DNA of 36,367 nt from Geovibrio ferrireducens (lineage in GTDB: Bacteria > Chrysiogenota > Deferribacteres > Deferribacterales > Geovibrionaceae), in assembly GCF_026226615.1 (NCBI RefSeq), contig NZ_JAJAPB010000017.1, positions 1 through 36,367 on the forward strand, given 5' to 3'. Of the stretch, positions 19,281-24,016 are shown in pieces. Each line of letters opens with the position of its first letter. The first letter of the stretch is position 1. Position numbers and translations under genes: made by a program. The notes below the pieces were generated by a model. It did not search any database. It was not told where the DNA came from and saw nothing but the letters and a program-made list of their open reading frames with translations.

Positions 19281-19300
19281 GGCTCCCAAGGATGGGAGCC
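19281..19300 (+). terminator. Hairpin after the TrpXYZ-like operon
   Basis: GGCTCCC (19281-19287) and GGGAGCC (19294-19300) form a perfect 7-bp stem with a 6-base loop, 15 bases after the stop codon. No U-tract follows, so termination would be weak or Rho-assisted. The right arm also begins the first copy of the 96-bp repeat. Confidence 0.4.
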
Positions 19301-19535
19301 CGCCGCGCGGAGCGAAGCCTTGCTCTGCAAGGCGCGAGCGTGTGTCCAAAATTTCCATGGACGGCAAATTTTGGATAGTAAAGACAGACAGGAGCCCGCC
19401 GTGCGCAGCGAAGCCTTGCTTTGCAAGGCGCGAGCGTGTATCCAAAATTTCCATGGACGGCAAATTTTGGATAGTAAAGACAGACAGGAGCGCGCCGCGC
19501 GGAGCGAAGCCTTGCTTTGCAAGGCGCGAGCGTGT
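19295..19535. repeat. 96-bp tandem repeat, two full copies plus a partial third
   Basis: Copies start at 19295, 19391 and 19487, an exact 96-bp period. Each unit holds a GC-rich half with the stem GCCTTGC/GCAAGGC and an AT-rich half with the perfect inverted repeat CCAAAATTT/AAATTTTGG. The copies differ at only a few positions (for example GCTCTGC versus GCTTTGC, GCGCGG versus GTGCGC). The third copy stops after CGAGCGTGT and lacks the AT-rich half. No gene is credible here: frames open through it only because the period is a multiple of three. Confidence 0.9.
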
Positions 19536-19567
19536 ACATCAATCCGGCAGGATGTGCGGATTGATGT
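19536..19567. terminator. 10-bp perfect stem-loop between the repeats and the ECF operon end
   Basis: ACATCAATCC (19536-19545) and GGATTGATGT (19558-19567) are perfectly complementary around a 12-base loop. It lies about 50 bases beyond the stop of the minus-strand Gly-rich gene. Without a clear T-run on the minus strand it may serve as a 3' stabilising stem or a Rho-assisted terminator. The rest of 19266-19617 (352 bp) has no gene. Confidence 0.45.
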
Positions 19568-19617
19568 TATCAGGTCAGACGCGGGCGGTTTCTGTGCAGG
19601 GCTTAAACAACCCTCTC

Positions 19618-20436
19618 TCAATGCCGGCCTTTTCCGCCGCCTGACCCTCCGTCATGTCCCCCTCCGCCTGAGCCGCCGCTTCCTGAACTTCCGCCTGACC
19701 CTGCGTCATGTCCTCCGCCGGAACTGCCGCTTCCACCTGTGCTTGCGCTTCCATGCGAACCGCTCCCGCTCATCTCATATCCCATGCTTTCCGCCAGCGA
19801 TTCCGCGTCAGCGTGTCCGGCCTGTTCCATGAAATTCTTTCTGTATCTGTATATTGCTCCGCTTTCCATTGATTTCGCTGATTTTTCGGCAATTTCCGAT
19901 GCTCTGGGATCAGAGACTCCGTAACGCACCAGCTCTCTGTAAAGCATTATTGACGCTTTTGCCGCCTCGTCTTTGTCTGTTTTTCTGCCTGATGCCGCCG
20001 CTGCAGTTTTCATTAATCCCTGCTCGCTCGCTCCTGCGGTCATAGCGTCTGCTGCGGCATCGGTGACGCTTTCTTCCGCACTGCGTGAGACTCCGGCTTT
20101 GACCGCAACACGTTCTGCTGCTTCATACCGCGAGCGTATCTGCTCTACTGCCCTTATTACCGCTTTTTCGGGCGCTTTCTTGGCGATTCCTTCCAGAACC
20201 TTCTCAGCATATTTCTCCGGAGCGCCGTATTTCCCTGCTGAAATAGCTTCCGCAAGTATTTTTACCGATTCTTCCGAATAGCCGTTTTTTCTTGTTTCCG
20301 CGGCGAGTTTTTCAGATAAGCCTTTCTCCACGCGCATACCCAGTGCCGCCTGGGTCAGCGTATCGTAAATATCCGAAGCCAGGGCGGATGAAAACCCGCA
20401 GAGAACAACCACTGTGAAGAATATAAGCTTTTTCAT
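19618..20436 (-). CDS. Secreted Ala-rich protein with Gly/Ser/His-rich tail, last gene of the ECF operon
   Basis: Not a family I recognise. Residues 1-20 are a signal peptide (ending SSALA). Residues about 22-220 are Ala/Glu/Lys-rich and predicted helical, with a loosely repeated pattern G-(L/Y/V)-S-(E/D)... about every 35-60 residues. The last 50 residues are Gly/Ser-rich with GGGHDAGSGG and GGGGHDGGSGG units and end in KGRH, a possible metal-binding tail. The ATG at 20436 overlaps the stop of the lipoprotein gene and has AGAGGA just upstream; an earlier in-frame ATG at 20457 would precede the signal peptide and is unlikely. Its place in the operon suggests it is an output of the sigma factor, working in the envelope or outside the cell. 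Confidence 0.7.
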   Translation of the reverse strand: MKKLIFFTVVVLCGFSSALASDIYDTLTQAALGMRVEKGLSEKLAAETRKNGYSEESVKILAEAISAGKYGAPEKYAEKVLEGIAKKAPEKAVIRAVEQIRSRYEAAERVAVKAGVSRSAEESVTDAAADAMTAGASEQGLMKTAAAASGRKTDKDEAAKASIMLYRELVRYGVSDPRASEIAEKSAKSMESGAIYRYRKNFMEQAGHADAESLAESMGYEMSGSGSHGSASTGGSGSSGGGHDAGSGGSSGSGGSGGGGHDGGSGGGKGRH

Positions 20437-20747
20437 TGTTTCCTCTCGTAAATACATATCTCTCCGCCGAAATCATCCTGCTGTTTCATACCGCAGTCCG
20501 GCAGAAAAACTTTGCCGTCAACAGTGAGGAAGTAGGTGAAGTGCTCCTCCTGTTTTACAGAAGCTCTCCATTTTCCGTCACTGAGTTCGGTTTTATTTTC
20601 CGCAAAACCGTCAGATGAGTGATAAAAGCTGACCTGTCCGGCATCTTTCACTTTAAATTCAGCCAGAAGCATTCCGCCCTTAGGGCTGAAACTGTGCTGT
20701 GAGCATCCGGCGCAAATAATAAGCATAAGCATGACGGCTTTTTTCAA
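20433..20747 (-). CDS. Small lipoprotein with early-set (AMPK-beta/isoamylase-like) domain
   Basis: A 104-residue protein with lipobox ICAGC (Cys15). The remaining 85 residues look like a reduced version of the domain at the C-terminus of the anti-sigma factor: FKVKDAGQVSFYHSSDGF, a Trp at 60 in DGKWRASV, FTYFLTVDGK, and the closing QQDDFGGEICIYE, parallel to QADDFGGENSVISI in the anti-sigma protein. Early-set domains of this group bind alpha-glucans in AMPK-beta and branching enzymes. Glucan binding here is unproven, since most aromatic contact residues are not evident. Both ends overlap neighbours by 4 bases. Confidence 0.65.
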   Translation of the reverse strand: MKKAVMLMLIICAGCSQHSFSPKGGMLLAEFKVKDAGQVSFYHSSDGFAENKTELSDGKWRASVKQEEHFTYFLTVDGKVFLPDCGMKQQDDFGGEICIYERKQ

Positions 20748-21313
20748 ATTCTGTCTCCAATGCTGATCACTGAGTTTTCCCCGCCGAAGTCATCAGCCTG
20801 CCTCGCCTTCACCGTCGGGTCTGTGATGCGCTCACTTCCGTTTATTATGAATGAGTAAGCGTATTCGCCCTGATTCAGCGGAAGGGAAACCTGCCAGTAT
20901 CCGGAGGAGCCTGTCTTATTCATCTCTATGGTTTTCCAGCTGCTGAAGCTGCCCGCGAGCTCCACCTTCTCAGCCTCCGGCATGTGAAGCACGAACCTGT
21001 GTTGCGCCTGAGCCGGAGCAGGTTCGGGAAGCGGTGAGGAGAGCCTGAAAAACAGCAGGAAAAGAGCCGCTGCCGCCGCGAAGGATGATATTCCGAAGGG
21101 GATAAGGAAGCTCCTTCGTTTTTCGCTGAAGACAGGGACAGGCGGGGTCTTGAACTCTTCGGTTCTCAGCATCTTTTCAGTTTCCAGAAGCTCTATCGCC
21201 TCATCCGAAAATGCTCTGTCTGTTCTTATTTCATGCACGAAGGTTATTTTCTCGTCCAGATTCAGCTCATCGTCAATGAACTGGCTTATCAGAACCTCTT
21301 TTTCTCCGTTCAT
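20744..21313 (-). CDS. Anti-sigma factor with periplasmic early-set domain
   Basis: The 189 residues show three parts. Residues 1-60 form a short acidic helical region (SQFIDDELNLDEKITFVHEI) like the sigma-binding domain of anti-sigma factors, but lacking the zinc HxxxCxxC motif. A single membrane segment covers 69-90, with KRR at 65-67 on its cytoplasmic side. Residues about 105-187 form an AMPK-beta/isoamylase-N-like early-set domain: VELAGSFSSWKTIEM (W126), GYWQVSLPLNQGEYAYSFIINGS (W140) and ADDFGGENSVI. The layout predicts a cytoplasmic sigma-holding part and an extracytoplasmic sensor fold. It overlaps the ECF sigma gene by 4 bases, the usual sigma/anti-sigma arrangement. Confidence 0.75.
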   Translation of the reverse strand: MNGEKEVLISQFIDDELNLDEKITFVHEIRTDRAFSDEAIELLETEKMLRTEEFKTPPVPVFSEKRRSFLIPFGISSFAAAAALFLLFFRLSSPLPEPAPAQAQHRFVLHMPEAEKVELAGSFSSWKTIEMNKTGSSGYWQVSLPLNQGEYAYSFIINGSERITDPTVKARQADDFGGENSVISIGDRI

Positions 21314-21792
21314 TTTCTGTTCTCCGAGATTATTTCTTTCAGCTTCTTCCTTGCCCTGTGTATTTTAACTTTAATATTCGCTTCGCTCAATCCGGTTATT
21401 GATGAGATTTCCGCATACTTCATTCCGCCTGATGAGCAGAGGGATATCAGCTCTCTTTCATCTTCGTCCAGCATTGACAGAGCCCGTGTCAGTATGTTGT
21501 TTTCCTCTTTTCCGCTGTAAATCTCCTCAGGGCTTTCAGCATGTTTTTCCGTGCATTCGGTAAGCTCGTCATGCACTCTGCTTTTTCTTTTGAGATCAAT
21601 AAAGAGGCTTTTTGCCACAGTGTAAAGCAGGGGCAGGGAGTGATTGTCCGGATAATTTTGGGCATATTTAAGAAAGCATTCCTGATAAAGATCTTCCGCA
21701 TCCTCTCTGCATCCGGAAAGCTTCATCAGATAGCCGAAAAGCCTGCCTGAGTTTTCTTCAAAAAAGCTGCGCAGAGATCTGTTTGAGTTCAT
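21310..21792 (-). CDS. ECF-type RNA polymerase sigma factor
   Basis: A 160-residue group IV sigma factor. Region 2 is at about 17-50 (LFGYLMKLSGCREDAEDLYQECFLKYAQN) and region 4 at about 101-155 (LTRALSMLDEDERELISLCSSGGMKYAEISSITGLSEANIKVKIHRARKKL), the latter with the helix-turn-helix for the -35 element. Regions 1.1 and 3 are absent, as expected. It is coupled to the downstream anti-sigma gene and preceded by a stem-loop. A promoter of ECF type lies upstream of the first gene of the operon, so autoregulation is likely. Confidence 0.88.
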   Translation of the reverse strand: MNSNRSLRSFFEENSGRLFGYLMKLSGCREDAEDLYQECFLKYAQNYPDNHSLPLLYTVAKSLFIDLKRKSRVHDELTECTEKHAESPEEIYSGKEENNILTRALSMLDEDERELISLCSSGGMKYAEISSITGLSEANIKVKIHRARKKLKEIISENRK

Positions 21793-21813
21793 TTTCTTCC
21801 CGGTTTTTCAGCA

Positions 21814-21835
21814 GGGCGGAAACTTTTTTCCGCCC
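21814..21835 (-). terminator. Stem-loop between the Gly-rich gene and the ECF sigma gene
   Basis: A perfect 9-bp stem (plus strand GGGCGGAAA 21814-21822, TTTCCGCCC 21827-21835) with a 4-base loop in the 60-base gap. It has no U-run on the minus strand, so it is more likely an mRNA-stabilising or attenuating element that favours the first gene over sigma than a full terminator. Confidence 0.55.
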
Positions 21836-21852
21836 CGTGCTGTGCGAAAGTG

Positions 21853-22239
21853 TTATTCAGTGACGGGCTGAGGTGCAGGAACCGTGTCTTCTTCAGCTCC
21901 GAATCCTGTTCCGTCTCCGGGCATGGGGTGTGTTCCGTCACCGGGGCCGAACCCTGTTCCGTCACCGCGGCTTTTTCCGCTTTCGCTGCTGCTGCCGTCA
22001 TGGTCTCCTGAGTCCTTTCCTGAACCTGATTCATGGGAAGAGCCGCCATTGCCCCCGGACGAACCTGAATCATTCGATGACCCGCCGTCGGACGAACCGC
22101 CTTTTCCGCTGCCGCCTGATGAACCTGATTCGTGGGATGAACCGCCTTTCCCGCTTCCGCCGCCCATTTTTGCGTAGCTCACGCCTGCCGCCGAAAACAC
22201 CAGCATAACCGCAGCCATTAGTGAAACAATTTTTTTCAT
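21853..22239 (-). CDS. Secreted Gly/Ser-rich low-complexity protein, first gene of the ECF operon
   Basis: A 128-residue protein whose signal peptide ends VSYA at about residue 23. Everything after is low-complexity: repeated GGSGKGGSSHESGSS-type units at about 26-75 and two GDGTGFG units near the C-terminus, ending in an acidic tail. Cysteine is absent. The composition recalls the tail of the last gene of the same operon. A very strong ribosome site (AAGGAGG, five bases before ATG) and the ECF-type promoter just upstream suggest high, sigma-dependent expression. The function is unknown; a structural or matrix role is a guess from composition. Confidence 0.7.
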   Translation of the reverse strand: MKKIVSLMAAVMLVFSAAGVSYAKMGGGSGKGGSSHESGSSGGSGKGGSSDGGSSNDSGSSGGNGGSSHESGSGKDSGDHDGSSSESGKSRGDGTGFGPGDGTHPMPGDGTGFGAEEDTVPAPQPVTE

Positions 22240-22267
22240 GTCCGCCTCCTTGTTCTTCTGTCTCCAT

Positions 22268-22293
22268 AACGGGAGGGGAAAAGAAAGGTTACA
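22268..22293 (-). promoter_or_regulatory. ECF-type promoter of the Gly-rich/sigma operon
   Basis: On the minus strand TGTAAC (22293-22288), exactly 16 bases, then CGTT (22271-22268). The AAC core at -35 and CGT at -10 with 16-17 bp between them is the common pattern of ECF sigma promoters. Transcription would begin near 22261, leaving a short leader that contains AAGGAGG. The -35 element overlaps the stop codon of the upstream diguanylate cyclase gene. Confidence 0.55.
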
Positions 22294-23839
22294 GACTGCT
22301 GAAAGAAAATAAGCAGTTTTTCTTTTTCTTGGCCTCGTAAAGCGCTTTGTCAGCTTCCAGAAGCAGTTTTTCCTTTGTGTCTCCGTTTTCTGGAATCATT
22401 GAGCAAAGACCAATGCTCACAGTGAGAATCTTATCCCTGAAAGCTGCCGCGTGTGGTACAGCAGCGTTCCGAACCGCATTCAGAATATCTTCGGCTATCT
22501 TGCCTGAACCTGTCAAATCTGTATCGGGGAGAAGGATTATGAACTCCTCTCCGCCGTATCTGGCTATTATGTCAGTATTTCTTTTAAGGGCGGATTTTAT
22601 TATCTCTGCCATACGGGCTATGCATTTGTCCCCGGCGCTGTAGCCGTAGTCATCGTTGTATAGCTTGAAGTCGTCAAGATCGACGATCAAAAGACCGAGG
22701 GGGCGTTTAATCCTCTTGGCCAGATTCCACTCGTAAAGGAATATTTCGTCAAAGAACCTTCTGTTGGCTATGCCTGTGAGCTTGTCAGTCTTTGAAATTT
22801 CCGTGAGGTTCTTCTCCATTGAGTCATTCTTTTCAGCTATTTTTCTTAAAGAGGAGTCTGTGATGCGGAGCTCCGCAGGCATATAAAATGACTTTTCCTT
22901 TATAATATTTTTGCCTTCGGCCGCTTTTGAGGAGAATACAGCCAGCCTTTCCGCCGGTTTTATCACCAGCCTCTTCATGGCGTATATGGCGGCAATGAAC
23001 AGGATAAGGGATATGGCTCCGTAAGCGGCAGCGGAAATCAGCATAATGCGGTTAATGTCTGTATTAACTGTTCTTTTTACATGGAAAAACAGGCTCAGCA
23101 GCGGTTTTCCGCTGAGTTCCTTGAGGGTGAGGCTTATTTTTGCGGTGCTCGGCGAAAGCAGTTCGACAGAGCTTATGCTGTTTATGCCTTCTTTAACATA
23201 CACTGATGATGAGGTGATATTAACTCTGGATGTTCCGCTCTCAAACCCGTAGCCCGAATAAAGCTCTGTGAGAAACTCCTTATCCAGCACATGCCCCATG
23301 AATACGAAACCCACTGCCGGCTGCTCCGGGCTGGCTGTTTTTACCGGACTCACGCTCAGCATAACGGGTCTGCCCGCTGAGGGCATGCTGAGTATCATGA
23401 ATTTTCTGTTGCTGAATGCCAGTTTTTCTATCTCGCTTTTATTTTTGCGGATAACTCGTACAAGCTCCTCTGCGTACTCCCCGCAGTCCTCTGTGTATGA
23501 TGAATGGTATTCCGAGTAGTCCCTGAGCAGGAAGATGATGAACTGGGTTCCGATCTGGCTGAACACAGAATCCGAAAATCCGGTGTTTACGAACAGCGGG
23601 TTTCTGTCTGTGAGAAACTCATAGGTCTCCTCCCTGCTGCCCCAGTCTGCGGTGAAGGAGTTATAGTAGCTGCCTTTCTGCTCTATTATCCCTGCCAGAA
23701 GGCCTGCTGTGTCGGCGTAGCTTCTCAGTTCGGAATCAGCGGAAACCGAGTGAACAAGCCGGAACGGAATAAAAAGAAAAAAAACCGGTAAAACCGTAAC
23801 AAAAACAAGCACTGCCGTAATAATGCTTTTCAGACGCAT
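22289..23839 (-). CDS. Membrane-bound diguanylate cyclase (GGDEF) with periplasmic sensor
   Basis: A protein of 516 residues. A membrane segment at about 5-28 precedes a periplasmic sensor of some 230 residues (about 30-260) of CHASE4-like appearance (SYYNSFTADWGSREETYEFL...NTGFSDSVFSQIG). A second membrane segment and a HAMP-like linker (AMKRLVIKPAERLAVFSSKA) lead to a GGDEF domain. The active site GGEEF (429-433) is intact, and an RxxD inhibitory site (RNTD, 420-423) stands five residues before it, so it should make c-di-GMP under product inhibition. The ATG at 23839 has GGAGA upstream and is preferred to one 24 bases earlier. It lies 49 bases before the Gly-rich gene on the same strand. 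Confidence 0.87.
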   Translation of the reverse strand: MRLKSIITAVLVFVTVLPVFFLFIPFRLVHSVSADSELRSYADTAGLLAGIIEQKGSYYNSFTADWGSREETYEFLTDRNPLFVNTGFSDSVFSQIGTQFIIFLLRDYSEYHSSYTEDCGEYAEELVRVIRKNKSEIEKLAFSNRKFMILSMPSAGRPVMLSVSPVKTASPEQPAVGFVFMGHVLDKEFLTELYSGYGFESGTSRVNITSSSVYVKEGINSISSVELLSPSTAKISLTLKELSGKPLLSLFFHVKRTVNTDINRIMLISAAAYGAISLILFIAAIYAMKRLVIKPAERLAVFSSKAAEGKNIIKEKSFYMPAELRITDSSLRKIAEKNDSMEKNLTEISKTDKLTGIANRRFFDEIFLYEWNLAKRIKRPLGLLIVDLDDFKLYNDDYGYSAGDKCIARMAEIIKSALKRNTDIIARYGGEEFIILLPDTDLTGSGKIAEDILNAVRNAAVPHAAAFRDKILTVSIGLCSMIPENGDTKEKLLLEADKALYEAKKKKNCLFSFSSL

Positions 23840-24016
23840 TGTGTATCTCCGAATTACAGACATACTACATGAAAAAAAACGGTTTTTAAATTCAATTTAC
23901 GGAATGGGGGAGAAAGAAAACTTTGAAGTTTTTATTCATAAATATTATTCTGAGCAGTTGCCCGCTTCGGACAGTTCCGCGGCAGGCGTTATTTTCTCTT
24001 AAGAGGGCGTATTTTC

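Follow-up and report, generated by a model that had tools for sequence, protein, structure and literature searches.

The locus described here raises the question of what signal is read by, and which genes answer to, an extracytoplasmic function (ECF) sigma factor whose anti-sigma partner displays a glycogen-binding-type fold beyond its membrane segment. It lies in a 36,367-nucleotide stretch of Geovibrio ferrireducens DNA (contig NZ_JAJAPB010000017.1, positions 1 to 36,367), which was analyzed as a whole and is hereafter called the window. A listing of open reading frames (ORFs) gives an operon of five minus-strand genes, which code for a Gly/Ser-rich secreted protein (gly), the ECF sigma factor, the anti-sigma factor, a lipoprotein and a helical secreted protein (sec). 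The last four are chained by 4-base overlaps: ATGA between sigma and anti-sigma, TTGA between anti-sigma and lipoprotein, and ATGA between lipoprotein and sec, the last of these following from placement of the sec start at the downstream ATG (20436; 272 amino acids, aa). An earlier reading of the DNA made without database searches (the sequence-only reading) had described this gene order and its overlaps, and the ORFs lie where it placed them. We propose that the operon is probably a dedicated, self-amplifying envelope switch which controls secreted Gly-rich proteins, a circuit that is well supported by computation together with its targets.

The sigma factor (160 aa; 21310..21792, on the minus strand like all other features of the operon) matches the Pfam models Sigma70_r2 (E 3.8e-9) and Sigma70_r4_2 (E 2.8e-15), both above the cut-off, as is its match to the sigma70-ECF model TIGR02937. 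Regions 2 and 4 are present and there is no region 3 (Pfam, NCBIfam), which is the domain composition of the ECF type. Its gene adjoins that of the anti-sigma factor in 80/80 loci kept from a wider scan of bacterial and archaeal genomes, these being mostly Desulfobacterota by their titles. The anti-sigma factor (189 aa; 20744..21313) consists of N-terminal helices (residues 2-51), a membrane helix (78-91) and an early-set domain of the AMPK-beta/CBM48 type (103-186; 20756..21007), which is predicted to be periplasmic. The domain matches AMPK1_CBM (E 8e-10) and CBM_48 (E 1.9e-8), each above the Pfam cut-off, and nothing else in the genome matches AMPK1_CBM (PF16561; 40.8 bits for this domain). 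In the AlphaFold2 model of the protein, three N-terminal helices are followed by the helix 78-91 at the expected membrane position and by a beta sandwich over residues 103-185 with a local confidence score (pLDDT) of ~96. The best Foldseek matches of this domain in the Protein Data Bank (PDB) are AMPK-beta glycogen-binding domains (E 2.5e-8 to 7e-8, root-mean-square deviation ~1.7 A), with template-modelling scores by target of 0.86-0.88 for 1z0m/1z0n. Hence, profile searches and structure modelling both recover the pairing that had been proposed from the letters alone, namely an ECF sigma factor with an anti-sigma factor that has one membrane segment and an early-set fold beyond it. Class I anti-sigma factors (ASDI) bind sigma through an N-terminal helical bundle in which a zinc motif is optional (PMC7406223). 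The Hx3Cx2C zinc motif was not found in the anti-sigma factor, and its modelled arrangement would correspond to a class I type lacking this motif, with sigma binding predicted for the N-terminal helices.

The genes that answer to the sigma factor are suggested by a promoter motif. Aligned upstream regions of gly from three loci of the same genus share a conserved TGTAACC...CGTTATG that recurs across the order. In the window, footprint and pattern searches place it at 22266..22293 as TGTAACC-N15-CGTTAT, an ECF-type promoter which the sigma factor of the operon is predicted to recognize. The strict form TGTAACC-N15/16-CGTTAT occurs at the operon in 12/12 family genomes, with 0 matches there for the reversed pattern. 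The operon is the only such site in 11/12 Deferribacteraceae genomes, a second match being present only in G003 (we label genomes G and loci L). Nine relatives among the genomes searched lack the operon, and none of them has the strict motif. For 73 loci outside the Deferribacterales, the Desulfobacterota-type loci, we counted the same motif at a fixed distance of 16 bases from GTAAC to CGT. It precedes sigma in 51/72 and sec in 30/62 loci and lies on the divergent strand in 17/73, against 0-3 for other spacings and 0-3 for the reversed motif in the same loci. The base 3' of CGT is T in 98/98 sites, although the pattern left that base free, and a relocated lipoprotein and sec bear their own motif (L113, L114, L119). 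An AAC-type -35 and CGT-type -10 layout is conserved before the operon as GTAAC-N16-CGTT, and its link to this sigma is by position and co-occurrence. Such a link would also be seen if TGTAAC-N16-CGTT were read by a different ECF sigma factor in these cells, with the operon as no more than one of its targets. This is very unlikely given that the motif accompanies the operon throughout the family, is missing from relatives without it and is often the sole site in a genome; moreover, ECF sigma factors are usually autoregulated.

Away from the operon the strict motif is less informative: 23 sites were listed in 20 whole genomes against 11 for the reversed control, so that many of the off-locus sites are due to chance. 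No recognizable output gene follows the off-operon strict matches in G003, G012 and G027, which look like chance and were set aside as targets. A pattern search of the organism's own genome gave one match besides the operon, in C5 (GTAACTGGC..CGTTTT). There, no T run follows the AAC box, and the match, probably due to chance, was discounted as a second promoter. At two off-locus sites the gene that follows is of a fitting kind: in L153 it codes for a further protein of the DGTG type, in L170 for a ferritin-like protein of the DUF2202 family.

The genes behind the motif mostly specify Gly-rich, low-complexity proteins with a signal peptide, which display GYGPGDGTGN..GP.DGTGYGPG repeats, DRDGSC repeats or Q/H-rich tails. 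The DGTG type sits behind the same promoter in Desulfobacterota and makes up most of the divergent and other motif genes. In the window, the gly protein (128 aa; 21853..22239) ends in GDGTHPMPGDGTGFG, which is the same kind of motif as that of the DGTG proteins, with the caveat that homology is not provable at such low complexity. A signal-peptide counterpart occupies the gly position in most Deferribacterales loci, and no gly gene is found there in G013, G018 and G020. A match of gly to the NCBIfam model ExtJ (E 0.007) covers the signal peptide only and was rejected; the DGTG proteins have no ExtJ match. The sec protein (272 aa; 19618..20436) combines an all-helical domain, modelled by AlphaFold2 at a pLDDT of 94.6 and a predicted template-modelling score (pTM) of 0.85, with a Gly/Ser/His tail. 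No consistent Pfam or NCBIfam family was found among 46 members of its family, and neither sequence nor fold gave a significant PDB match. Because the shared promoter precedes their genes, the secreted proteins are predicted to be sigma outputs common to two phyla. The secreted gly/DGTG and sec proteins are probable sigma targets by this pattern of sites, with the motif predicted to be read by this sigma. Thus, the earlier suggestion that the secreted proteins are the likely outputs gains a conserved promoter before the operon, before sec and before the divergent genes, which is the weightiest of the new findings. Two further features of these proteins may be recorded. Many DGTG-type proteins of L058-L121 have a hydrophobic-LA(K/R)GGxG stretch immediately N-terminal to the Gly-rich part, which may mark a processing site. 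The gly-position proteins of L036 and L037 (G008, G005) have Q/H/Y-rich tails without DGTG repeats, and tails resembling these, rich in Q/H, occur behind the motif in Desulfobacterota (L098, L101).

An anti-sigma homolog was found in 25/60 genomes searched (own included), among them 12/12 of the family. Most of the Deferribacterales loci read preserve the order gly-sigma-anti-sigma-lipoprotein-sec, and in G049, which belongs to the same phylum but is more distant, the last four of these genes are found. Of the 80 loci, at least 74 have a lipoprotein gene and no fewer than 69 a sec gene, with the last four genes recurring together in ~70; several of the shortfalls lie at contig edges and a few are ORF-length artefacts. 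Conservation across the Deferribacterales, the distant phylum member and the Desulfobacterota implies that the arrangement is not due to chance. The comparison of neighborhoods in relatives, which the sequence-only reading had called for, thus finds the genes co-occurring, and none of the three outcomes that it had named as refuting it came about. Certain observations do weigh against the proposed switch: the anti-sigma N-terminus has no match to any Pfam anti-sigma model, no motif was detected ahead of sigma in 17-21 of the 72 Desulfobacterota-type loci, and L067 and L095 have neither lipoprotein nor sec downstream. From these last two loci it follows that in some species the regulatory pair does without both proteins, and that the smallest unit comprises sigma, anti-sigma and a divergent gene for a secreted protein.

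As to what the switch reads, the sequence-only reading had proposed that the early-set domain binds a glucan or other envelope polymer and thereby frees the sigma for the production of more secreted protein. The fold is indeed that of glycogen-binding domains, and the surface carbohydrate-binding modules of Clostridium thermocellum RsgI offer a precedent (PMC4711584). W126 and N180 of the anti-sigma factor, the equivalents of AMPK-beta1 Trp100 and Asn150, are invariant in 47 aligned sequences, which also speaks for a polysaccharide sensor. Against this, among the AMPK-beta sugar contacts, which we take to be Trp100, Lys126, Trp133 and Asn150, none of the 47 sequences retains the equivalent of Lys126 (mostly replaced by Ser/Thr/Ala) or of Trp133, so that the domain keeps two of the four residues by which glycogen binding was judged. 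The GH13 alpha-amylase family, which includes the glycogen branching and debranching enzymes, was found by Pfam search in 1/12 family genomes, all 12 of which have the operon, versus 13/14 control genomes; it was not found in the window's genome or in 10 others of the 12. Nor does any carbohydrate-enzyme family recur in the operon neighborhoods of the loci surveyed. With two sugar contacts lost and GH13 mostly absent, the residue and gene-content patterns make a starch- or glycogen-type ligand unlikely for the sensor domain here. Glucan sensing is therefore not borne out, and we regard a polysaccharide sensor in the wider sense as improbable. In our view the ligand is more probably a protein than an alpha-glucan; the exported Gly-rich proteins, through their state, or the lipoprotein would be candidates.

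The lipoprotein (104 aa, TTG start; 20433..20747) had been read as carrying a second, reduced copy of the sensor domain. This holds although Pfam misses the domain: its profile aligns with that of the anti-sigma early-set domain over 83 columns (hhalign probability 98.7, E 1.9e-16), and it keeps an aromatic residue at the position of the early-set Trp. The protein has no Pfam family and no Pfam RseB match. It has a lipobox Cys, and Cys15, Cys85 and Cys98 are invariant across 36 sequences. The invariant Cys85/Cys98 pair allows a redox reading, whereby its oxidation or the binding of a metal would alter the contact with the anti-sigma factor, and the Gly-rich proteins would serve for protection or bind metal. 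In its favor, DUF2202 and di-heme peroxidase-like genes are recurrent neighbors of certain Desulfobacterota operons, in part behind the motif. However, a structural disulfide accounts for the cysteine pair equally well, DUF2202 was not found in the window's genome, and L067 and L095 dispense with the lipoprotein; such a switch is hence hard to favor and, in our judgment, unlikely.

The genes invoked by this reading have the following distribution. DUF2202 ferritin-like genes are near the operon in 6/80 loci and in G049, and outside the Deferribacteraceae they occur near the operon or behind the motif in L081, L091, L098, L103, L105, L115, L047 and L170. Owing to its absence from the window's genome, DUF2202 was rejected as a core component in this organism. 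Genes resembling di-heme cytochrome c peroxidase (MauG) lie near the Desulfobacterota operons of L061, L091, L094, L100, L125 and L127, those of L061, L125 and L127 being behind a GTAACC-CGTT-like site.

Feedback from export or assembly is another possibility for the signal. Here, the early-set domains would bind the gly and sec products or each other, and the sigma would be freed by a shortage of secreted product or by its jamming in the periplasm. The sole strict-motif site of most Deferribacteraceae genomes being the operon itself, sensor and output form a closed loop, and they co-travel over phyla. On the other hand, the Gly-rich outputs are highly variable and the sensor domain is well conserved, and sec is not beside the pair in L064, L065, L067 and L095. 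We would entertain such feedback as a tentative possibility. A more specific form, in which the duplicated early-set domain of anti-sigma factor and lipoprotein gauges the export or assembly state of an extracellular structure made of DGTG and helical proteins and so tunes its own supply, as a system undescribed so far and shared by Deferribacterota and Desulfobacterota, is speculative and rather doubtful.

Whatever its ligand, the envelope switch that we favor could operate as follows. The N-terminal helices of the anti-sigma factor would hold the ECF sigma at the membrane, while the periplasmic early-set domain, possibly together with the second copy in the lipoprotein, would read the state of the envelope. 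Upon a signal, the anti-sigma factor would be inactivated, most likely through regulated proteolysis, and the released sigma would transcribe its own operon along with the secreted gly/DGTG and sec genes from TGTAAC-N16-CGTT promoters. A site-2 protease family is present in 13/13 genomes searched, which permits proteolytic release, though the family is nearly universal.

Between gly and sigma lies a GC-rich stem-loop (21809..21842; -21 kcal/mol), whose enclosing 66 nucleotides fold with a z of -3.7. Hairpins of unrelated sequence occur at the same place in 11/12 Deferribacterales loci (-14 to -21.5 kcal/mol), as compared with random windows, 5% of which reach -13.9 kcal/mol on a coarse length grid that missed two hairpins seen with the full grid. 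As a T run is mostly absent at these hairpins, we read the element as a candidate partial terminator or mRNA processing or stabilizing element, which might keep gly more abundant than sigma. Directly upstream of the operon, as in three loci of the same genus, lies a gene for a CHASE4-GGDEF diguanylate cyclase (22289-23863), whose stop codon region is overlapped by the 5' end of the promoter. Just downstream, positions 19295-19582 hold three tandem 96-nucleotide units, of which copy 2 is 96% and copy 3 64% identical to copy 1. An Rfam scan of the window gave no match.

No description of this gene composition was found in the open-access literature, subscription papers being outside that search, and no characterized homologous operon came to light, in line with the earlier statement that no such system was known. 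The operon system is thus apparently undescribed, while the sigma factor itself may already carry an ECF group number. What emerges is a predicted regulon defined with its promoter motif and common to two phyla of widespread anaerobes, the outputs of which are secreted low-complexity proteins without a Pfam or NCBIfam family; the motif offers a handle for finding them. We found no description of a sensor built in this way, with an early-set domain displayed by an anti-sigma factor outside the membrane. The sec family, for its part, has a fold that is modelled with confidence and that no solved structure matches significantly.

Among known systems, SigI/RsgI of C. thermocellum has, as is predicted here, an anti-sigma factor with an outer carbohydrate-binding-type domain, secreted outputs and autoregulation (PMC4711584, PMC12203970). 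The anti-sigma factor described here would share with RsgI the cytoplasmic N-terminus, the single membrane segment and the C-terminal domain of carbohydrate-binding type outside. However, SigI has a C-terminal domain of its own and no region 4, in contrast to the two-domain ECF sigma here, whose region 4 is clear. The RsgI N-terminal domain has no match in our anti-sigma factor (Pfam, NCBIfam), and the outer domain here is of the AMPK-beta/CBM48 type with sugar contacts lost, has a second copy in a lipoprotein and goes with outputs that are not glycoside hydrolases. The Streptomyces pair BldN/RsbN, an ECF sigma factor and its adjacent anti-sigma factor, resembles the circuit proposed here in that it mainly controls proteins secreted to the cell surface, namely the chaplins and rodlins (PMC4255298, citing Bibb et al. 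2012). Yet the sigma factor here reaches 62.4 bits against a cut-off of 206 for the BldN model TIGR02952, and phyla, sensor domain and outputs are unrelated. The AMPK-beta glycogen-binding domain itself (1z0m, 1z0n) is matched in fold, in sequence profile and in the equivalents of Trp100 and Asn150, and differs in that those of Lys126 and Trp133 are lost here and in that our domain is predicted to lie outside the cytoplasm, on an anti-sigma factor. In the Sigma-E/RseA/RseB system of Escherichia coli, a membrane anti-sigma factor without a zinc motif acts with a separate periplasmic partner, and the targets serve outer-membrane repair. Our system parallels it in having an anti-sigma factor without the zinc motif and a separate partner, and by this analogy we borrow its model of proteolytic release as a plausible one. 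Unlike RseB, the partner here is a lipoprotein with the fold of the sensor domain itself, and the predicted targets are secreted Gly-rich proteins.

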